From Halogeometricum pallidum JCM 14848 (GTDB taxonomy: Archaea; Halobacteriota; Halobacteria; Halobacteriales; Haloferacaceae): a stretch of DNA of 64,000 nucleotides. The position numbers and the translations under genes were made by a program. Under the pieces are notes generated by a model. The model was not told the origin of the DNA and ran no database searches. It was given only the letters and a program-made list of their open reading frames with translations. Location: assembly GCF_000337095.1 (NCBI RefSeq), contig NZ_AOIV01000025.1, forward strand, positions 1-64,000, in the 5' to 3' direction. Shown one piece after another: positions 18,315-29,566 of this stretch (position 1 is the stretch's first letter; the number at the start of each line of letters is the position of its first letter).

Positions 18315-18926
18315 ATGGACGAGAAGACGGCCGAACTCAGGGACATCTTCGTCGAGACGACCGGGTCGGAGTCGGTGACGGAGCGACAGGAGGAGTCGCC
18401 CGGGTCGTTGACGGACGCCCCCGACGACGAGGAGCGAAACCGCCGCGTGGCGGAACTCGTCGCGGCGATGCGAGAGCGCTACGAGTTCGAGTCGGACCTC
18501 TCAAACGAGGACCTCCGCCGGGTCGTCCGCGGGTTCTTCGACGGCGACACCGACGCGGAACTCGCGGCGGTCCTGGAGGCGGACGCCGACGAGGAGGACG
18601 TGTTCGTCGCGCGGACGGACCTCCACCTCCTGCGGGAGTCGGACGCCGACGCGTCGTTCCCCGTCGACGAGTTGCGGTCGCTCCTCGCGGACGGCGCGGA
18701 CGACGAGGCGTGCGCGGCCGCACTCGACACCGACGCCGAGACGGCGGCGCGCCACCGCCGCGTCGTCGAGGCGCGGCGCGAGGCGACGCGCGCGAACGAC
18801 CGCTTCCGCGCAGACTTCGAGGAACTGCTGACCGACTCGAACCTCTCGGCGCGACTCGCCGAGGACGCCCGCCGCGACGGCCTGCGCGACGCCACCGAGG
18901 ACATCGAGACGGACGTCTCGCTGTAG
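18315..18926 (+). CDS. Conserved haloarchaeal protein next to mcm (Cmi4-like)
   Basis: This 203-residue, very acidic, helical protein begins MDEKTAELRDIFVETTG. The composition and position directly upstream of mcm match a haloarchaeal gene that I recall being annotated as conditioned medium-induced protein 4; that name gives no function. The middle third has repeated helix-turn segments (LSNEDLRRVVRGFFDGDTDAEL, then VDELRSLLADGADDEACAAAL), suggesting a helical-repeat or HTH-like body. Synteny with mcm hints at a replication or cell-cycle link, which is inference. 98 bp separates it from mcm. Confidence 0.7.
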   Translation: MDEKTAELRDIFVETTGSESVTERQEESPGSLTDAPDDEERNRRVAELVAAMRERYEFESDLSNEDLRRVVRGFFDGDTDAELAAVLEADADEEDVFVARTDLHLLRESDADASFPVDELRSLLADGADDEACAAALDTDAETAARHRRVVEARREATRANDRFRADFEELLTDSNLSARLAEDARRDGLRDATEDIETDVSL

Positions 18927-19024
18927 GGTTCGTCCCGGCGTCGTCCGGTGACGGCGGCCGTCCGTCCCCACCACTTCCGCTCCGAGCGAAGACTCTTACC
19001 GGATGGGGGACTTACTCCGGTTCG

Positions 19025-22000
19025 ATGGCACAGGCCCCGCAGGACCCGGACGTGGACCTCACCGAGCGGTTCGTCCAGTTCTACAGAAAGTACTACAGCG
19101 ACGATATCGGCCGCCTCGCCCAGCGGTACCCGAACGAACAGCGTTCGTTGTACGTCGACTACGACGACCTGTTCCGCTTCGACGAGGACCTCGCGGAGGA
19201 CTACCGCAAGAAACCGGACCAGATACGCGAGTACGCCGAGGAAGCCCTCCGCCTCTACGACCTCCCGGTCGACGTGAAACTCGGGCGCGCGCACGTCCGC
19301 CTCCACAACCTCCCGGACTCCGTGGACATCCGCAACATCCGCGTCCACGACGACCACATCGGTCGGATGGTGTCGGTGCAGGGCATCGTCCGCAAGGCGA
19401 CGGACGTCCGCCCCAAGATCACGGAGGCCGCGTTCGAGTGCCAGCGCTGCGGGACGATGACGTACATCCCGCAGACCGACAGCGGCTTTCAGGAACCCCA
19501 CGAGTGTCAGGGCTGCGAACGACAGGGTCCGTTCCACGTCGACTTCGACCAATCGGAGTTCGTCGACTCCCAGAAACTGCGCGTCCAGGAGAGCCCCGAG
19601 GGCCTGCGGGGCGGCGAGACGCCGCAGAGTATCGACATCGACACCGAAGACGACATCACCGGGCGGGTGACCGCCGGCGACCACGTCGTCGTCACGGGCG
19701 TCCTCCACATCGAACAGCAGACCTCCAACCAAGAGAAGACGCCCATCTTCGACCTCTACATGGACGGCGTCGCCATCGAGATAGAGGACGAGGAGTTCGA
19801 GGACATGGACATCTCCGAGGAGGACGTCGCCGAGATAATCGAACTCTCGAACGAGGAGGACATCTACGAGATGATGGTCGGTTCCGTCGCCCCGTCCATC
19901 TACGGTTACGAACAGGAGAAACTCGCGATGATCCTCCAACTGTTCTCGGGCGTCACCAAGCACCTCCCCGACGGGTCGCGGATTCGCGGCGACCTGCACA
20001 TGCTGCTGATAGGGGACCCGGGTACCGGGAAGTGCGTCGCCGGGGACACGCGGGTAACACTGGCGGACGGGTCGGAGGTTCCCATCCGCGAACTCGTGGA
20101 GCGAAACCTCGACGACCCGAAACCGGTCGACGACGGCGTGTGGGACTCGGTCGACTTCGAGGTGCCGTCGATGGCGCACGACGGGTCGATTTCGACGCGA
20201 CGGGCCACCAAGGTGTGGAAGCGCGAGGCACCGGAGCGAATGTACGATATTCGGACCGCGAGCGGGCGAGAACTCACCGTCACGCCGTCGCACCCGCTGT
20301 TCATCGGTCGGGACGGCGGCACCGACGCCGTCGTCGCCGAGGACCTCGAAGCGGGCGAGTTCGTCGCCGTTCCGCGGTCGCTTCCGGTCGAGGGCGACGA
20401 CTCCCTCGACGTGTCGATTCGCCGGTCGCGCTCACCCAACGCCGTTCGAATGGACCTCCCGGACCGACTGACGCCGTCGCTCGCACGTCTGCTCGGGTAC
20501 GTCGCGGCCGAAGGCTACGTCGACCGACGCGATTCGGGCAGTGCGTTCGTCTCCGTGACGAACAACGACCGAGAGATACTGGACGACGCGCTCGACGCAC
20601 TGGACGGACTCGGTCTCTCAGCGACCGAGCGAACCCCCCACGACGGAAAGAGCGCTCGAGAGCTCATCTGCTCGTCGTCCGAACTCGTGAGCTTCCTCGA
20701 AGAACTGGAGCCGGCGTTCTTAGCGGGTTCGAGCGAGCAGCGGGTTCCTGAGCCGATTCTACGGTCCACTCGCCCCGTCAAGCGGGGATTCCTGAAGGCG
20801 TTCGTCGACGCCGAGGGAACCGTCTCGCCGTCGCAACGGGAAGTAACCGTCTCCTCGACCAGCCGCGACGTTCTCGAAGGCGTCCGGAGCCTCCTCCTCG
20901 CGTTCGGCGTCGACTCGCAACTCCGGCCGAAAGCCGGCGGCAGCTTCCGACTCCGAATCAGCGGCGACGACTTCGCTCGCTACGTCGAACGGGTCGGCTT
21001 CGTCACCGAACGGAAGAGCGAGGCGGCCGCCGCAACCGTCGACGCCGACGGGAACACGAACCGCGATGTCGTCCCCAGTGTCGGCGAAACCCTCCGCGAC
21101 CTGCGCGAATCGCTCGGTCTCACGCAGGCCGACTGCGGACTGCCCCGGAGCACGTACCAGCACTACGAGCGCGGCGACCGGAACCCGAGTCGAGACAGTC
21201 TCCGGACGGTCGTCCGAACGTTCACCGAGGCGTCGAACGACGGACTCGCAACCGACGGCGACGGCGGCGCGAGCGTCGAACGCAGACTCGCCTCCCTGCG
21301 AGCCCTCGCGGACGGTGACGTCGCGTGGGACCGCGTCGAGTCAATCGAGTCGGTCGAATCCGAGGACGAGTGGGTGTACGACCTCGAAATCGAGGGGACG
21401 CACAACTTCCTCACGAACAACGTCGTCTCTCACAACTCCCAAATGCTGCAATACATCCGGAACATCGCGCCCCGGTCCGTCTACACCTCCGGGAAGGGTT
21501 CCTCCTCGGCGGGCCTCACTGCAGCGGCTGTACGTGACGATTTCGGCGACGGACAGCAGTGGACGCTCGAAGCTGGCGCCCTCGTCCTCGCGGACAAGGG
21601 CATCGCGGCCGTGGACGAACTGGACAAGATGCGCCCGGAGGACCGCTCCGCGATGCACGAGGGCCTCGAACAGCAGCAGATCTCGGTTTCGAAGGCCGGC
21701 ATCAACGCGACGCTGAAGGCCAGATGTTCGCTGCTCGGCGCGGCGAACCCCAAGTACGGACGGTTCGACCAGTACGAGTCAATCGGCGAGCAGATAGACC
21801 TCGAACCCGCGCTCATCTCGAGGTTCGACCTCATCTTTACGGTGACGGACACTCCGGACCCGGACACCGACGCCGAACTCGCAGAGCACATCATCAACAC
21901 GAACTACGCGGGCGAACTGCACACCCAGCGGACGAAGATAGCCAACTCCGAGTTCACCGAGGACGAGGTGAACTCGGTCACTCAGGAGGTGGCCCCCGTG

Positions 22001-22543
22001 ATAGACGCCGAACTCCTGCGGAAGTACATCGCCTACGCCAAGCGCAACTGCTATCCGACGATGACCCAGGAGGCCAAAGAGACCATCCGCGACTTCTACG
22101 TCAACTTCCGCGCGAAGGGCTCCGACGAGGACTCTCCCATCCCCGTCACCGCTCGGAAACTCGAAGCGCTCGTCCGCCTCGCGGAGGCGTCGGCGCGCGT
22201 CCGCCTCTCGGACAGCGTCACCCAGGAGGACGCCGTCCGGGTCACGAACATCGTCGAGTCCTGCCTGCGCGACATCGGGATGGACCCCGAGACGGGCGAG
22301 TTCGACGCAGACATCGTGGAGACGGGCACCTCGAAGAACCAGCGCGACCGCATCAAGAACCTGAAGGCGCTCATCAACGAACTCGAAGACGAGTACGAGG
22401 GCGGCGCGCCGGTGGACGAGGTGCTCGCTCGCGCGGAGGCAGAACTCGACCTGGGCGAGGGCAAGGCCGAACAGGAGATAGAGAGCCTGCGCCGGAAGGG
22501 CGAGGTGTACGAACCGCGGACCGACCACCTGCGGACGACGTAA
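19025..22543 (+). CDS. mcm: Replicative DNA helicase MCM, intein-containing precursor
   Basis: This is the precursor of the MCM helicase that unwinds DNA at the replication fork. The 1172 residues reduce to 704 after removal of the intein at 337-804. N-extein: N-terminal domain with zinc motif CQRCG...CQGC and Walker A GDPGTGK at its end. C-extein: starts Ser-Gln-Met-Leu, then Walker B in LADKGIAAVDELDKM, the helicase segment, arginine finger SRFDLIF and the C-terminal winged helix. Because the intein separates the P-loop Lys from its Ser, the unspliced protein cannot form a working ATP site. The ATG at 19025 follows a TTACC box. Confidence 0.97.
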   Translation: MAQAPQDPDVDLTERFVQFYRKYYSDDIGRLAQRYPNEQRSLYVDYDDLFRFDEDLAEDYRKKPDQIREYAEEALRLYDLPVDVKLGRAHVRLHNLPDSVDIRNIRVHDDHIGRMVSVQGIVRKATDVRPKITEAAFECQRCGTMTYIPQTDSGFQEPHECQGCERQGPFHVDFDQSEFVDSQKLRVQESPEGLRGGETPQSIDIDTEDDITGRVTAGDHVVVTGVLHIEQQTSNQEKTPIFDLYMDGVAIEIEDEEFEDMDISEEDVAEIIELSNEEDIYEMMVGSVAPSIYGYEQEKLAMILQLFSGVTKHLPDGSRIRGDLHMLLIGDPGTGKCVAGDTRVTLADGSEVPIRELVERNLDDPKPVDDGVWDSVDFEVPSMAHDGSISTRRATKVWKREAPERMYDIRTASGRELTVTPSHPLFIGRDGGTDAVVAEDLEAGEFVAVPRSLPVEGDDSLDVSIRRSRSPNAVRMDLPDRLTPSLARLLGYVAAEGYVDRRDSGSAFVSVTNNDREILDDALDALDGLGLSATERTPHDGKSARELICSSSELVSFLEELEPAFLAGSSEQRVPEPILRSTRPVKRGFLKAFVDAEGTVSPSQREVTVSSTSRDVLEGVRSLLLAFGVDSQLRPKAGGSFRLRISGDDFARYVERVGFVTERKSEAAAATVDADGNTNRDVVPSVGETLRDLRESLGLTQADCGLPRSTYQHYERGDRNPSRDSLRTVVRTFTEASNDGLATDGDGGASVERRLASLRALADGDVAWDRVESIESVESEDEWVYDLEIEGTHNFLTNNVVSHNSQMLQYIRNIAPRSVYTSGKGSSSAGLTAAAVRDDFGDGQQWTLEAGALVLADKGIAAVDELDKMRPEDRSAMHEGLEQQQISVSKAGINATLKARCSLLGAANPKYGRFDQYESIGEQIDLEPALISRFDLIFTVTDTPDPDTDAELAEHIINTNYAGELHTQRTKIANSEFTEDEVNSVTQEVAPVIDAELLRKYIAYAKRNCYPTMTQEAKETIRDFYVNFRAKGSDEDSPIPVTARKLEALVRLAEASARVRLSDSVTQEDAVRVTNIVESCLRDIGMDPETGEFDADIVETGTSKNQRDRIKNLKALINELEDEYEGGAPVDEVLARAEAELDLGEGKAEQEIESLRRKGEVYEPRTDHLRTT
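20033..21436 (+). mobile_element. Intein with LAGLIDADG endonuclease, in the MCM Walker A site
   Basis: This is a 468-residue in-frame insertion. Block A starts with Cys1 (CVAGDTRVTLADGS), block B is GRELTVTPSHPLFIG, and the end is NFLTNNVVSHN followed by extein Ser, so the splicing residues (Cys1, the TxxH-type His, penultimate His, terminal Asn, +1 Ser) are all present. Two LAGLIDADG motifs, LLGYVAAEGYV and GFLKAFVDAEGTV, keep acidic residues, so the homing endonuclease may be active. Residues ~350-400 of the intein (ETLRDLRESLGLTQADCGL then STYQHYERGDRNPSRDSL) look like an XRE-type helix-turn-helix, perhaps helping DNA recognition. Confidence 0.93.
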
Positions 22544-23957: not shown

Positions 23958-24242
23958 ATGGACCGAATCTCCGCCCTGCGAAACGTCGAGGAGGCCCTCC
24001 GGGACTTCGAGTCCGGCGAGTCGGACCTCGCGGCGACCGAACGACGCGTCGTGACCGTCCTCCGGACGTACGCCACCGACTTCGAGGGCGAGGCGGGTCT
24101 CGCCCCCTACCGGGCCGACGGGGAGAACCGCGCGAACGGCCTCGTCGTCGTCGCCGAGAGCGCCGAGGACGCCCGGACCCGCGTGTACGACCTGCTGGAC
24201 GAGACGCCCGGGTCGCTCGACTTCGCCGTCGAACGCCTGTAG
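23958..24242 (+). CDS. Small conserved haloarchaeal protein of the MinD cluster
   Basis: This is a 94-residue acidic protein I cannot name. It opens with a helical region (RISALRNVEEALRDFESGE, then LAATERRVVTVLRTYATDFE) and ends with a strand-helix-strand unit containing GLVVVAESAEDARTRVYDLL. No cysteines, membrane segments or catalytic motifs are present. It begins a run of five co-directional genes ending in a MinD-like ATPase, but has its own leaderless promoter, so a structural or regulatory role with its neighbours is a guess from context. Confidence 0.7.
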   Translation: MDRISALRNVEEALRDFESGESDLAATERRVVTVLRTYATDFEGEAGLAPYRADGENRANGLVVVAESAEDARTRVYDLLDETPGSLDFAVERL

Positions 24243-24308
24243 CCCGGTCGACGCGACAAACATCAATCCGAGAGAGTTTTAACTCAGAATGGATTTTCTT
24301 CCGTAACC

Positions 24309-24647
24309 GTGTTGCTCGTCGTGACCTACTCGCGGTCCGCCCGCGAGACGCTCCGGAACGTCTGTCGAACGCACGAGGAGACCGTCGTGCGGCGGTTCGG
24401 CCGCGCCGCCCTCCTCGCGGAGACGGAGTTCGGCGCCTTCCTCGCGTGCCGCCTCCGCGAGAAGCACGCCGCCGACGTGCAGGTCGAACGGACCGAACCG
24501 TTCAACGAGTTCGCCGACGCGCCCGCGTCGGTCCGGGCGGCCGCGACGGCCTACGAGTCGCGCGACTCCCCGAGCACGCCGTACGACAAGTTCGCCGCCG
24601 GCACCGACCACCCCTCGTCGGCGGCGATGCGCGACGGCGACCTGTGA
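24309..24647 (+). CDS. Conserved haloarchaeal hypothetical protein of the MinD cluster
   Basis: This 112-residue protein starts at GTG 24309 with a strand-helix unit (LLVVTYSRSARETLRNVCRTHEETVVRRFGRAALL; the two halves each look regular). Two Cys residues are present, but there is no C-x-x-C motif. The C-terminus is Ser/Thr/Pro-rich. I do not recognise the family. Its TGA stop overlaps the GTG of the next gene as GTGA, so the two are translationally coupled. A TTTTAAC box lies 26-32 nt upstream and supports this start. Confidence 0.65.
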   Translation: MLLVVTYSRSARETLRNVCRTHEETVVRRFGRAALLAETEFGAFLACRLREKHAADVQVERTEPFNEFADAPASVRAAATAYESRDSPSTPYDKFAAGTDHPSSAAMRDGDL

Positions 24648-25528
24648 CCGCCCGGCCGATTCGCGTCCGCCTGCCCGACGCGTCGCTCCACGTCGGTCCG
24701 GTCGTCGACCTCCGGGGGGTCGACGCGGCGCCCGACGCCGCGACGCTCCGTCGAGCGGTCGTCGGCGGACTCCCCGCCGAACCCGCCGCGCCGAGCGTCG
24801 TCCGCCCCGCGCCGACGCCGGTGCATCCCTTCGTCGCGCGCCTCGCGGCGGGGAGTTCGTTCGACCGGCGCGGCGCGCTGGCGGCCCTGGCCCGCGTCCG
24901 CGGTCACGACGCGGGCGGGGCGCTGACCGAACTCGAACGGGTCCGGGAGGCGATAGCCGAGGCGGCGCCCGCGGAGTCGGCCGACCTCGCCGCCGCGCGC
25001 CGCCGGGCGGCCGAGGCGGGTGCGGAGACCGACCGCCTCCGCGAACGCGTCGCGACGATTCGCGGACGGGTCGAGGCCGTCCGGGAGGCCGGGGGGGATG
25101 CCGACGCGGTCGAGGCCGAACTCGCGGCGGCGATGCGGCGACTCTCCGAGGTGTCGACCGACCGCGTGGCCGCCCGACAGCGACTCGACGCCTTGGAAAC
25201 GGAGGCGCGCCGCGCCCGCGACTCCCGCGAGGCGCGCATGCGACTCGAAGACCGGGCGGCGAACCTCGAACGGGACGCGCGACGGACGCTCGCCGCCGCC
25301 GTCTACGACGCGTTCGCCGCCGCGGTGGCCGCGCTCCCGCCCGCGTTCGACGCCGACGCGGGGACCGAACCCGGCGAGTTCGCGGGCGACCCGCTCTCGG
25401 CCACCCTCGCCGTCGCCCGAGCGGCCCCCCTCCGCGCGCCCGTCGTCGTCGACCCGGCCGTCGTCGACCGGTTCGGCGGCCTCACGCGCTCCGTCCGCTA
25501 TCTCTCGGGGCCGGTCGTGGTCCGCTGA
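24644..25528 (+). CDS. Coiled-coil hypothetical protein of the MinD cluster
   Basis: This 294-residue protein starts at a GTG that overlaps the upstream stop codon. The N-terminal ~120 residues are a globular acidic region with PTPVHPFVARLAAGSSFDRR. From about 85 to 210 it is rich in Ala, Glu and Arg with heptad-like spacing (ERVREAIAEAAPAESADLAA, AETDRLRERVATIRGRVEAV, DALETEARRARDSREARMRL), a long antiparallel or parallel coiled coil. The C-terminal part has VVVDPAVVDRFGGL. Coiled-coil partners are common for MinD/ParA-type ATPases, so this may be a regulator or scaffold; that is inference. The longer open frame upstream is antisense to other genes. Confidence 0.65.
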   Translation: MTARPIRVRLPDASLHVGPVVDLRGVDAAPDAATLRRAVVGGLPAEPAAPSVVRPAPTPVHPFVARLAAGSSFDRRGALAALARVRGHDAGGALTELERVREAIAEAAPAESADLAAARRRAAEAGAETDRLRERVATIRGRVEAVREAGGDADAVEAELAAAMRRLSEVSTDRVAARQRLDALETEARRARDSREARMRLEDRAANLERDARRTLAAAVYDAFAAAVAALPPAFDADAGTEPGEFAGDPLSATLAVARAAPLRAPVVVDPAVVDRFGGLTRSVRYLSGPVVVR

Positions 25529-25575
25529 CGCCGACCGATGCAGGTTGAAATACCAGCGCGCGGCCAGACCGGTCC

Positions 25576-26367
25576 ATGGAGCACGACTGCACGACGGAAT
25601 CGGTCGCCGGCGCGACGCTCGTAACGGTTCGCGTCCGCAACGAGGCACCCGTCCCGCGCCGCGTCCGCGTCCGCAACGAACTCCCCGGTCCCGTCCTCCC
25701 GCCGCGGCGCGAGGGCGTCCCCGAACGCGGATGGGACGAGAGCGGATTCGAGGGCGTCCTCGACGCCGGCGAGGAACGAGCGCTCGGGTACGCCTGTCCG
25801 GTCGCCTCCGAGGACGACCGTCCGGTCTCCGTGGCGTCGCTCGGCCGGGACGAGGCCGAACGGGCGGCCGACCGCGAGAACGAGGCCATCCGCGCTCTCG
25901 GGCGGGCGCGACCGCCCGCGGACGCCGTTCCGGTTCCGGGCGGATCGCTCGCGCGCGACTCCCTTCCCGACGATGCGGGAGGGGCGGCGACCTCGGACGA
26001 CGCCCGCCGCGGCGACGAGGCCGACGGTACGCACGTCGACGATACCCACGCGGACGAAGACGCCTCCGAGCGGAGCGTCTCCGAGGAGGCGAGCGACGGC
26101 CGGGACCGAGGACCTCGACCGCCCGCGGTCGCCTCGTGGCTCGACGCGGTCGAGACGCGCGTGCGTCTCGCGGAGCGACTGACGGACGCCACGGCGACGG
26201 ACGCCGCGGCGGTGCTCGAAACCGCGGGCGACGTGTCCGGACTGCCGTCGACCGTCGACGCCGACGAGACGACGCTCCGGACCGTCGCCGCGCGGGCGTC
26301 GGAACTCGCCGACCGGGCCGCGGAGACGGATGCCGGCCCGACCGTCGACTCGTTGGTGGCCCTGTGA
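25576..26367 (+). CDS. Conserved haloarchaeal protein upstream of MinD-like ATPase
   Basis: This 263-residue protein has three parts: an N-terminal beta-rich domain (LVTVRVRNEAPVPRRVRVRN, reminiscent of an immunoglobulin-like or DUF11-like fold), a long acidic linker rich in Asp and Glu (about 115-185), and a C-terminal helical region (VASWLDAVETRVRLAERLTD). No enzyme motif is visible. Its TGA overlaps the GTG of the following MinD-like gene (GTGA), so the two products are made together and probably act together. I do not know its function. Confidence 0.65.
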   Translation: MEHDCTTESVAGATLVTVRVRNEAPVPRRVRVRNELPGPVLPPRREGVPERGWDESGFEGVLDAGEERALGYACPVASEDDRPVSVASLGRDEAERAADRENEAIRALGRARPPADAVPVPGGSLARDSLPDDAGGAATSDDARRGDEADGTHVDDTHADEDASERSVSEEASDGRDRGPRPPAVASWLDAVETRVRLAERLTDATATDAAAVLETAGDVSGLPSTVDADETTLRTVAARASELADRAAETDAGPTVDSLVAL

Positions 26368-27029
26368 TACTCGCCGTGGCCGGCGGGAAAGGCGGCGTCG
26401 GCAAGTCGACGCTGGCCTTCGAACTCGGCGCCGCCACGGGCGCCGTCGTCGTCGACGCCGACGTCGGTATGGCCGACCTGCCGACCGGTCCCGGCCCGGA
26501 CCTCCACGACGTGCTCGCCGGTCGGGCGTCGGCCGTCGAGGCCGTCCGAGAGGACGGGCCGGTGACGCTGCTCCCGTGCGGGCGGTCGCTCGCCGGCGCG
26601 CGGGCCGCCGACGTGGGCCGACTGGGCGAGGCGCTCCGCGACGTCGAACGGGCCTACGGCGACGCGGTGGTCGACTGCCCGGCGGGGATGCGAGCCGACG
26701 CGGGCGTCCCACTCGCCGTCGCCGACGCCTGCGTCGTCGTCGCGTCCCCCCGACCGTACGCGCTGGCCGACGCCGTCCGGACGCGGGAACTGGCGCGCGA
26801 ACTCGACGCCGGACTCGTCGCCGTCGCGGTCAACCGCGCCGTCGACGACCCTCCCGAAGCCGTCTTCGAGGAGGTGCTCGGCGCGCCCGCGGTCACCGTC
26901 CCCGCCGACCCGCGCGTCGCCCGCGCCGTCGAAACCGGCCGCCCCGTCTGCCGCGTCGCGCCGTCGAGTCGCGCCGGGCGCGCGATTTCGTCGCTCGCGC
27001 GGGCGGTCGACCGCTGCTCGCGCGCGTGA
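26364..27029 (+). CDS. MinD/ParA-family ATPase
   Basis: This 221-residue P-loop ATPase of the SIMIBI class has the deviant Walker A GGKGGVGKST right at the N-terminus, with both the signature and P-loop lysines, then VVVDADVGMADLP (switch I) and VVDCPAGM (switch II). No C-terminal amphipathic membrane helix is evident. Size and synteny next to tfb match what I recall of Haloferax MinD1 (HVO_0225), one of four MinD homologues there; MinD4 affects the positioning of chemotaxis and archaellum machinery, while MinD1 is not understood. The start is GTG, coupled to the upstream gene. Confidence 0.85.
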   Translation: MILAVAGGKGGVGKSTLAFELGAATGAVVVDADVGMADLPTGPGPDLHDVLAGRASAVEAVREDGPVTLLPCGRSLAGARAADVGRLGEALRDVERAYGDAVVDCPAGMRADAGVPLAVADACVVVASPRPYALADAVRTRELARELDAGLVAVAVNRAVDDPPEAVFEEVLGAPAVTVPADPRVARAVETGRPVCRVAPSSRAGRAISSLARAVDRCSRA

Positions 27030-28174: not shown

Positions 28175-28717
28175 ATGGGACTAGCGGACATCGCGGCGGA
28201 GACGGCGGTGACGACGAGCAGACAGGAGGTGCGGGGCGTCGCCACGGTGGACGATACCGGCGTGAACCTCGACGCCCGACTGCGCGACCACGCGGACGCG
28301 CTCCCCTGCGCGCCGGAGGCGGCGGCGACGGTCGTCGAGCGGTACGTCGACGGCGACAGCGTCGGCGAGGCGGGACGGGCGGCCGCCGTCGCCCCCGTGA
28401 CGGCCGCGAAGGTGCTCCACCGCGCCGGCGTCGAGGGTGTCACCCCGCTCGCGCCGACGGCGCGGACGGTCCTCCGTGATTGGCTGTCAGGGAACCTCTC
28501 CCGCGCGGACGCGCTCGAACTCACGGGCGCCGATGAGGCCGAGTTCGCCCTCGCGGCCTACGTCGAGACGCACGACCCGGTCGCGGAACTCGTCGACGCG
28601 ACTCGACGCGACGCGGCGCGACCGCTCGGCGGCGACGCCCTCGTTCACAAACGCGACGCGCTCGGAGAGACGATGAGCGCGCCGACGGACCGCTTCTCTA
28701 GTAGCGTCCGCAACTGA
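28175..28717 (+). CDS. Conserved haloarchaeal protein, possibly HTH
   Basis: This 180-residue helical protein has two segments that look like helix-turn-helix units: SVGEAGRAAAVAPVTAAKVL and LSRADALELTGADEAEFALA. There are no membrane segments. I know of similar proteins next to haloarchaeal tfb genes but no assigned function; DNA binding is inferred from form only. Start ATG at 28175. The end of the gene, including its stop codon, falls in the left arm of a large inverted repeat. Confidence 0.65.
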   Translation: MGLADIAAETAVTTSRQEVRGVATVDDTGVNLDARLRDHADALPCAPEAAATVVERYVDGDSVGEAGRAAAVAPVTAAKVLHRAGVEGVTPLAPTARTVLRDWLSGNLSRADALELTGADEAEFALAAYVETHDPVAELVDATRRDAARPLGGDALVHKRDALGETMSAPTDRFSSSVRN

Positions 28718-28780: not shown

Positions 28781-29566
28781 TCACTTCACGTATCGCTCGA
28801 CGCCCGAGAGGAGGCCGCCGCTCCCCACCGCCTCACTCACGTCGCGACCCACCGCGCCCGCCGCGAGGCGAGCGACGCCCTCGGCGAACGCCCCTCCCTC
28901 GTCGAGACACGACGGCACCGACGCGGGGTCGGTCACCTCCGAGGCGGGCACCGCGCAGTCGGCCGCCTCGAACGTCCCGCGCGTCGCGACGACGAAGTCG
29001 GCCCCGCTCCCGACGTGTTCGAGTCGCGTCCGCATCCGCTGGACGGCGTCCGCCCCGCGCGTCGTCCCCGGGGCGACGAGGACGACCCGGTCTGCGGCGC
29101 TCACCGCCGCGATGGCCTGGTTCGCGGCGACCGGCGGCACGTCGACCAGCACGTGGTCGAACCGCTCGCTCGCCCGCCCCAGTCGCGCCTCGAACCGCCG
29201 CGCGGCGTCGGGCGCCTTCGCCCGCGCGAATCGTTCGAGGGGGGCGAACGCCGGGCAGACGGAGACGCCGCCGGGAGCGTCGCAGTCCAGCGTCGTCAGC
29301 GCGTCCGACAGCGGTGCGTCGGCCTCGTCGGTCAACAGCGCGGTCAGATCGGGGTCGATTCGGCCGTCGAGGAGGTCCGCGAGCCCCTGCGTCGCGAACG
29401 CGGCGTCGAACACGCCCACGTCCGCGCCGTCCGCGGCGAGGGCCGCGGCCGCCTCCAGCGTACACCGCGTGGTCCCTGCACCGCCGACGGCGCCGACGAA
29501 GGCCGCGATGCCCGCGCCGCCCGTCCGGTCGCCGTCGTCTCCGCCCTCCCTCTCTGCGTCGTGCAT
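28781..29566 (-). CDS. MinD/ParA-like protein with degenerate P-loop
   Basis: This 261-residue relative of MinD/ParA ATPases follows the fold order: strand IAAFVGAVGGAGTTRCTLE at ~19, an Asp in VGVFDAAFATQGLADLL, and VLVDVPPVAANQAIAAV corresponding to switch II, then ADRVVLVAPGTTRGADAVQR. The Walker A loop is GAVGGAGTTR: both conserved lysines of KGGxGKT are missing (Val and Thr). It may bind nucleotide weakly or act as a pseudo-ATPase partner of the intact MinD-like protein at 26364. Residues 1-17 are an acidic tail. Start ATG 29566. Confidence 0.75.
   Translation of the reverse strand: MHDAEREGGDDGDRTGGAGIAAFVGAVGGAGTTRCTLEAAAALAADGADVGVFDAAFATQGLADLLDGRIDPDLTALLTDEADAPLSDALTTLDCDAPGGVSVCPAFAPLERFARAKAPDAARRFEARLGRASERFDHVLVDVPPVAANQAIAAVSAADRVVLVAPGTTRGADAVQRMRTRLEHVGSGADFVVATRGTFEAADCAVPASEVTDPASVPSCLDEGGAFAEGVARLAAGAVGRDVSEAVGSGGLLSGVERYVK

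Follow-up and report, generated by a model that had tools for sequence, protein, structure and literature searches.

What does a MinD-type ATPase do at the end of a block of five genes for which no role has been proposed? The question is raised by a 64,000-nucleotide (nt) stretch of the haloarchaeon Halogeometricum pallidum JCM 14848 (NZ_AOIV01000025.1), here called the window, in which all features are numbered from its first letter. To our knowledge, few of the abundant MinD paralogs of euryarchaea have a known job, and an earlier note on this DNA suggested that the five genes could be an undescribed cell-positioning system, where a long coiled-coil protein would act as the partner of the ATPase. 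We find that the genes form two separate modules, and that the constant partner of the ATPase (MinD1) is the immunoglobulin (Ig)-like protein DUF7857, not the coiled-coil protein DUF7856. The best explanation as a whole, and one that we consider fairly probable, is that the MinD1-DUF7857 pair regulates where one particular haloarchaeal pilus is placed or how it is assembled. A positioning system is still plausible for the ATPase and its neighbouring partner, with a type IV pilus as its likely cargo, but not for the five genes together.

Two modules rather than one operon

The five open reading frames (ORFs), all on the same strand, each belong to a family of their own, with profile matches of very low E-value (Pfam scores of 128.9 bits for DUF7854, 195.3 for DUF7855, 266.7 for DUF7856 and 128.1 for DUF7857, all far over the cut-off), and the product of the fifth gene matches the ParA/CbiA and archaeal MinD profiles. 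These matches confirm the ORFs as first described, and the two GTGA overlaps that couple DUF7855 to DUF7856 (24644-24647) and DUF7857 to MinD1 (26364-26367) are likewise present. We refer to DUF7855-DUF7856, with DUF7854 beside them, as module A, and to DUF7857-MinD1 as module B:

23958..24242, + strand: DUF7854 protein, 94 amino acids, mostly found 5′ of DUF7855-DUF7856
24275..24283, + strand: TATA-like box (GTTTTAACT region), ~30 nt before DUF7855
24309..24647, + strand: DUF7855 protein, 112 amino acids, predicted ferredoxin-like fold with a conserved C-terminal tail; module A
24644..25528, + strand: DUF7856 protein, 294 amino acids, predicted central coiled coil, GTGA overlap with DUF7855; module A
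25544..25553, + strand: TATA-like box (TTGAAATACC region), before DUF7857
25576..26367, + strand: DUF7857 protein, 263 amino acids, predicted Ig-like sandwich, acidic linker and helical tail; module B
26364..27029, + strand: MinD1-type ParA/MinD ATPase, 221 amino acids, GTGA overlap with DUF7857; module B

Across a first sample of 59 genomes spread over the class Halobacteria, all five genes stand together in 32 of the 38 loci found through DUF7856; most of these blocks have mcm on one side and a TFB gene on the other. The gene order asked after in the earlier note is thus kept at most of these loci, but the modules are separate in many genomes. Module B occurs without module A in G005, G025, G045, G046, G050, G052 and G057, and in the last of these the pair is still found between mcm and TFB, which supports its orthology. 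DUF7855, with or without DUF7856, remains beside TFB with no MinD1 in G018, G054, G029 and G047, and module A genes without MinD1 are also present in G036, G037 and G049 (seven genomes in total), while in G013 the two modules lie 135 kb apart. No MinD1 without DUF7857 was found in the 59 class genomes, and the 4-nt overlap between these two genes is present in 38 of 40 loci, against 16 of 35 for DUF7855/DUF7856.

The promoters follow the same division. An AT-rich, TATA-like box ~30 nt before the start codon precedes DUF7855 in 36/37 loci and DUF7857 in 40/45, but DUF7856 in only 2/37 and MinD1 in 1/41; the claim that each unit has its own TATA box holds for these two genes and less well for DUF7854, whose box is weak or shifted. 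Since the modules separate repeatedly and conserved TATA boxes stand at separate places, there are two transcription units, DUF7855-DUF7856 and DUF7857-MinD1, with DUF7854 probably a unit by itself. Gene separation and promoter positions rule out a single five-gene operon, and the independent occurrence of the modules rules out DUF7856 as a dedicated partner of MinD1. Module A is a separate neighbouring module.

Joint presence of MinD1 and HerA

The presence of MinD1 follows that of a HerA-type ATPase. The two agree in 59/59 class genomes (41 with both genes, 18 with neither), MinD1 presence in genomes with a full cluster being taken from the retrieved loci. As relatedness inflates tests of co-occurrence, we used a test within genera: four genera of this sample hold both states, and the chance of a perfect MinD1-HerA match within them is 1/600. 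The module A genes served as an internal control, with 12 mismatches to HerA for DUF7856, 11 for DUF7854 and 14 for DUF7855; these genes share the mcm locus, and the MinD1-HerA match is therefore not a property of the locus.

A second sample comprised 125 genomes of one family with much variation in state, 14 of which the first sample had also included. The two genes agree in 119 of the 125 (68 both, 51 neither), whereas three carry MinD1 only and three HerA only, the latter (G163, G167, G168) each just 66-70% complete. Among the good assemblies of this family the counts are 65 and 62 of 111, with agreement in 108/111. Of the 68 genomes that have both genes, 27 carry them at most 20 kb apart, where ~1% would be expected for each. 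In G045, DUF7311 is missing, the HerA match is only fragmentary and a frameshift interrupts MinD1 at its P-loop, so that in this genome the parts decay jointly.

A pilus cluster around module B

Many Natrialbaceae-like genomes have module B embedded in a cluster of type IV pilus genes, the other members of which are a HerA-type ATPase, DUF7310, DUF7311, a TadA/PilB motor and TadC. Away from the mcm locus, DUF7857-MinD1 is inside or beside this cluster at L075, L076 and L078-L082. The clearest case is L076 (G005), in which a MinD-DUF7125 fusion, two membrane proteins, DUF7857 and MinD1 are followed by DUF7382 on the opposite strand, and then by the HerA-type ATPase, the DUF7310 coiled coil, DUF7311, a T2SSE/TadA motor and TadC; L075, L078, L079, L080, L081 and L082 carry parts of this gene set. 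MinD1 is within ~10 kb of the TadA/TadC cluster in L076, L079 and L080, while the genome of the window has all the parts on separate contigs, with DUF7857-MinD1 on C25, DUF7382-HerA on C26 and DUF7310-DUF7311-TadA-TadC-DUF7284-DUF7286 on C41.

The linked HerA gene encodes a short protein (~350 amino acids) with DUF87 and HerA_C domains, Walker A and Walker B motifs and weak matches to solved HerA proteins, and in most genomes examined it is flanked by the membrane protein gene DUF7382. The motors of G000, G005, G019 and G030 have a Cys-rich N-terminus, with CxC...C...C ahead of the P-loop.

Two further kinds of gene accompany the pilus genes. CetZ tubulin-like genes stand directly beside the DUF7310-DUF7311-TadA operon at L130:7622-8701 (-) and L134:10743-11828 (+); in Haloferax, the localisation of CetZ1 is reported to be influenced by MinD proteins. 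At L076:4886-6214 and in its relatives, a MinD ATPase (KGGCGK) within the pilus cluster is fused to a KaiC-like DUF7125 domain, and in the genome of the window a MinD gene lies directly 5′ of a separate DUF7125 gene (G000 contig C4, 118662-119972). DUF7125 is present in 57/59 genomes and hence uninformative as a marker alone.

The MinD1 ATPase and DUF7857

The ATPase of the window was rightly called intact. It has the KGG-x-GK[ST] P-loop, A′ Asp and DxPAG Walker B of the ParA/MinD superfamily, here in the form of a deviant Walker A (GGKGGVGKS), the A′ Asp and DCPAG, together with a conserved LPCGR-x-LAGAR motif. The protein begins at the P-loop (VILAVAGGKGGVGKS), with no N-terminal receiver-like domain. 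Its score against the NCBIfam family minD_arch (TIGR01969), 125.5 bits for a cut-off of 201.75, marks it as related, yet outside the curated family, and a scan of named genomes with the MinD1 profile returned only paralogs and bacterial MinD. The only MinD1 proteins to have lost the canonical P-loop lysine (KGGVGTST) are those of genus g10 (L049:10927-11595, L050:8263-8931), where the use of ATP may differ; these genomes still have HerA and the pilus operon.

In DUF7857, the AlphaFold model bears out the Ig-like fold and acidic linker of the first description. Strands extend up to residue 89 with a predicted local distance difference test (pLDDT) of ~95, confidence is low at ~120-170, and helices occupy 183-262, so that the protein is predicted with high confidence to be an Ig-like beta sandwich (1-90), joined to a helical tail through an acidic linker that is disordered. 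Copies of the Natrialbaceae type have just the sandwich and a short tail. With no signal peptide evident in its sequence, DUF7857 is probably cytosolic. A fold look-up gave only generic Ig/CBM/MSP/adaptin-like sandwiches (best Z 8.7, root-mean-square deviation (rmsd) 2.2, 86 residues aligned), which give no function, and profile searches found no solved relatives for the Ig-like part and weak coiled-coil matches for the tail. In genus g23 (L058, L059, L067), DUF7857 is retained without MinD1, and in these copies the RPP-motif stretch that usually lies between the sandwich and the helical tail is missing.

A pilus regulator and its alternatives

How could these observations be joined? We propose that DUF7857 and MinD1 are a translationally coupled two-protein module that would serve one type IV pilus machine in trans. 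This machine would comprise the DUF7310 coiled coil, DUF7311, the Cys-rich TadA/PilB-type motor, TadC and DUF7284/DUF7286, plus the separate HerA-type ATPase with DUF7382, and we take HerA to be its second dedicated motor. MinD1 would alternate between ATP- and ADP-bound states, and a cytosolic DUF7857 could be the adaptor that connects MinD1 with either the base of the pilus or the HerA motor. Together they would ensure that the machine is built where, when or in the number required, in the manner of TadZ/CpaE and FlhG/FleN. The parts of this proposal differ in strength: a functional link between module B and the pilus/HerA genes is well supported and likely, a role of MinD1-DUF7857 in positioning or assembly somewhat better than even, and we infer that the pair is in physical contact with the machine, that ATP drives the switching and that the control is spatial.

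Several observations weigh against this proposal. Three genomes of the family sample (G071, G159, G161) carry MinD1 without HerA. In genus g23 (G036, G037, G049), MinD1 and HerA are both missing although the pilus operon is there together with a shortened DUF7857, and a search for MinD1 elsewhere in these three genomes found only paralogs 34-37% identical; the pilus operon can therefore persist without MinD1. The parts are unlinked in most genomes outside the family studied, so that the tie to the pilus rests there on co-occurrence, and with genomes that are related, raw Fisher values make the association look more significant than it is. In Haloferax volcanii, moreover, no change in growth or division has been reported for the deletion of all four minD genes, which impairs motility to the same degree as the loss of minD2/4 alone (PMC11588486, PMC11621097).

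The alternative that survives best, although unlikely in our estimation, is that module B chiefly partners a HerA pump for DNA or protein, whose tie to the pilus would be loose, with MinD1 controlling the assembly or placement of HerA. The MinD1-HerA match is indeed the tightest of all, above MinD1-DUF7311 (55/59), genus g23 lacks both genes while keeping the pilus operon, and HerA has DUF7382 as a neighbour of its own. However, DUF7857 follows the pilus operon (agreement with DUF7311 in 58/59) slightly more closely than it follows HerA (56/59), and HerA adjoins DUF7311-TadA both at L124 of G057 and wherever the cluster is full, and therefore looks itself like a part of the pilus machine.

Less probable still is that MinD1-DUF7857 is a general spatial regulator of shape, chemotaxis or the archaellum, whose match to HerA and the pilus would reflect ancestry or lifestyle. 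Haloferax MinD2 and MinD4 do act on motility and shape (PMC11588486, PMC11621097), and the gene content of haloarchaeal lineages differs for many reasons; but in several genera that include both states the genes vary together, the pair is physically embedded in the pilus cluster, and the module A genes of the same locus do not track HerA. Least probable of all is one five-gene positioning system with DUF7856 directing the ATPase, since the block conserved between mcm and TFB in 32/38 loci is broken by module B alone in at least seven class genomes, by module A genes without MinD1 in seven, by the 135 kb of G013, and by separate, conserved TATA boxes.

Relation to known systems

TadZ/CpaE is a MinD/ParA-superfamily ATPase of bacterial Tad pili, which are driven by TadA/TadC, and sets their assembly; FlhG/FleN does likewise for flagella. 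MinD1 is similar to TadZ/CpaE in its superfamily and its association with a TadA/TadC pilus, and differs in the missing receiver-like domain, in its Ig-like partner and in a gene often away from the pilus operon. The closest solved relatives of its profile are archaeal MinD, followed by FleN (e.g. 1hyq, 1g3q and 5j1j for the two groups), from which MinD1 is set apart by its score below the archaeal MinD cut-off and its LPCGR-x-LAGAR motif. FleN/MinD ATPases have been proposed as regulators of pili in general (Makarova et al. 2016, PMC4858521). According to the same paper, the motor of subclade 4F pili is Cys-rich at its N-terminus, halobacteria have a coiled-coil subunit in the cytoplasm, and an FtsZ-like gene lies nearby. 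The linked pilus resembles this subclade, to judge by the CxC...C...C motors, the DUF7310 coiled coil and CetZ at L130 and L134; DUF7310 is likened to the 4F subunit arCOG07564 as a coiled coil only. The passages of PMC4858521 consulted here do not assign HerA, MinD1 or DUF7857 to the 4F pilus, the literature searched held no link of MinD1 to DUF7857, HerA or the pilus, and a text search on the DUF family names gave nothing further.

Among haloarchaeal proteins, the ATPase of the window is most simply regarded as the ortholog of H. volcanii MinD1 (HVO_0225), as judged from family and gene order. The Haloferax protein belongs to the same family and, by gene numbering, to the same place (mcm is HVO_0220), and in the control genome of H. 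volcanii DUF7854-57 and DUF7311 were all found. The five families were hence already named (Pfam DUF7854-7857; MinD1 as HVO_0225), so that the earlier label "uncharacterised" stands only for function, none being described for MinD1 or DUF7854-7857 in the literature found. MinD2-HVO_0596 is another MinD with a constant neighbour, comparable to the MinD-DUF7125 fusion or adjacency seen here, but with another paralog and another partner; HVO_0596 would be DUF7125 from gene order only.

In the Ced/Ups DNA exchange system of Sulfolobales, too, a type IV pilus acts together with a HerA/VirB4-like ATPase (PMC11868833), although HerA here is short. A rather improbable extension of our proposal is that pilus, HerA pump and MinD1-DUF7857 form a haloarchaeal DNA- or protein-transfer machine, the euryarchaeal counterpart of Ups/Ced in working principle, in which the MinD-type ATPase and its Ig-like adaptor would set where the apparatus is built.

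Other genes of the locus

DUF7855 is predicted to have a beta-alpha-beta-beta-alpha-beta, ferredoxin-like fold with a conserved C-terminal extension; the matches from a fold look-up were all ferredoxin-like ones of a generic kind (best Z 7.1, rmsd 2.0, 56 residues aligned), which give no function, and a profile search gave no credible solved relatives. The long coiled coil of the first description agrees with the prediction for DUF7856, whose SMC/Rad50-type matches are weak.

The conserved order begins with mcm and the five genes, after which many genomes have a convergent TFB gene, then DUF7858 and a MinD/ParA gene that is degenerate. By eye, a cystathionine-gamma-synthase-like gene can be recognised in the window between mcm and the five-gene block. 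The MCM helicase gene (18710-22543, +) is split by an intein-like insert (CVAGDTRVTL...VVSHNS), which also holds an XRE-like helix-turn-helix stretch, both recognised by eye. Inteins of haloarchaeal MCM are already known (PMC10643990). The DUF7858 protein gene (28175-28717, +) is a conserved neighbour of the TFB gene, and beside both is conserved a second MinD/ParA-like gene (28781-29566, -), whose P-loop is degenerate in every copy checked (e.g. GAVGGAGTTR, with no lysine) and which therefore looks like a conserved pseudo-ATPase.

Concluding remarks

If our proposal is true, the orphan MinD1 and the Ig-like DUF7857 family would be assigned to a defined machine, for which a dedicated HerA motor is predicted. 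It would also explain why minD1 deletions have been silent in assays of growth, division and motility, the phenotype being expected in pili instead.

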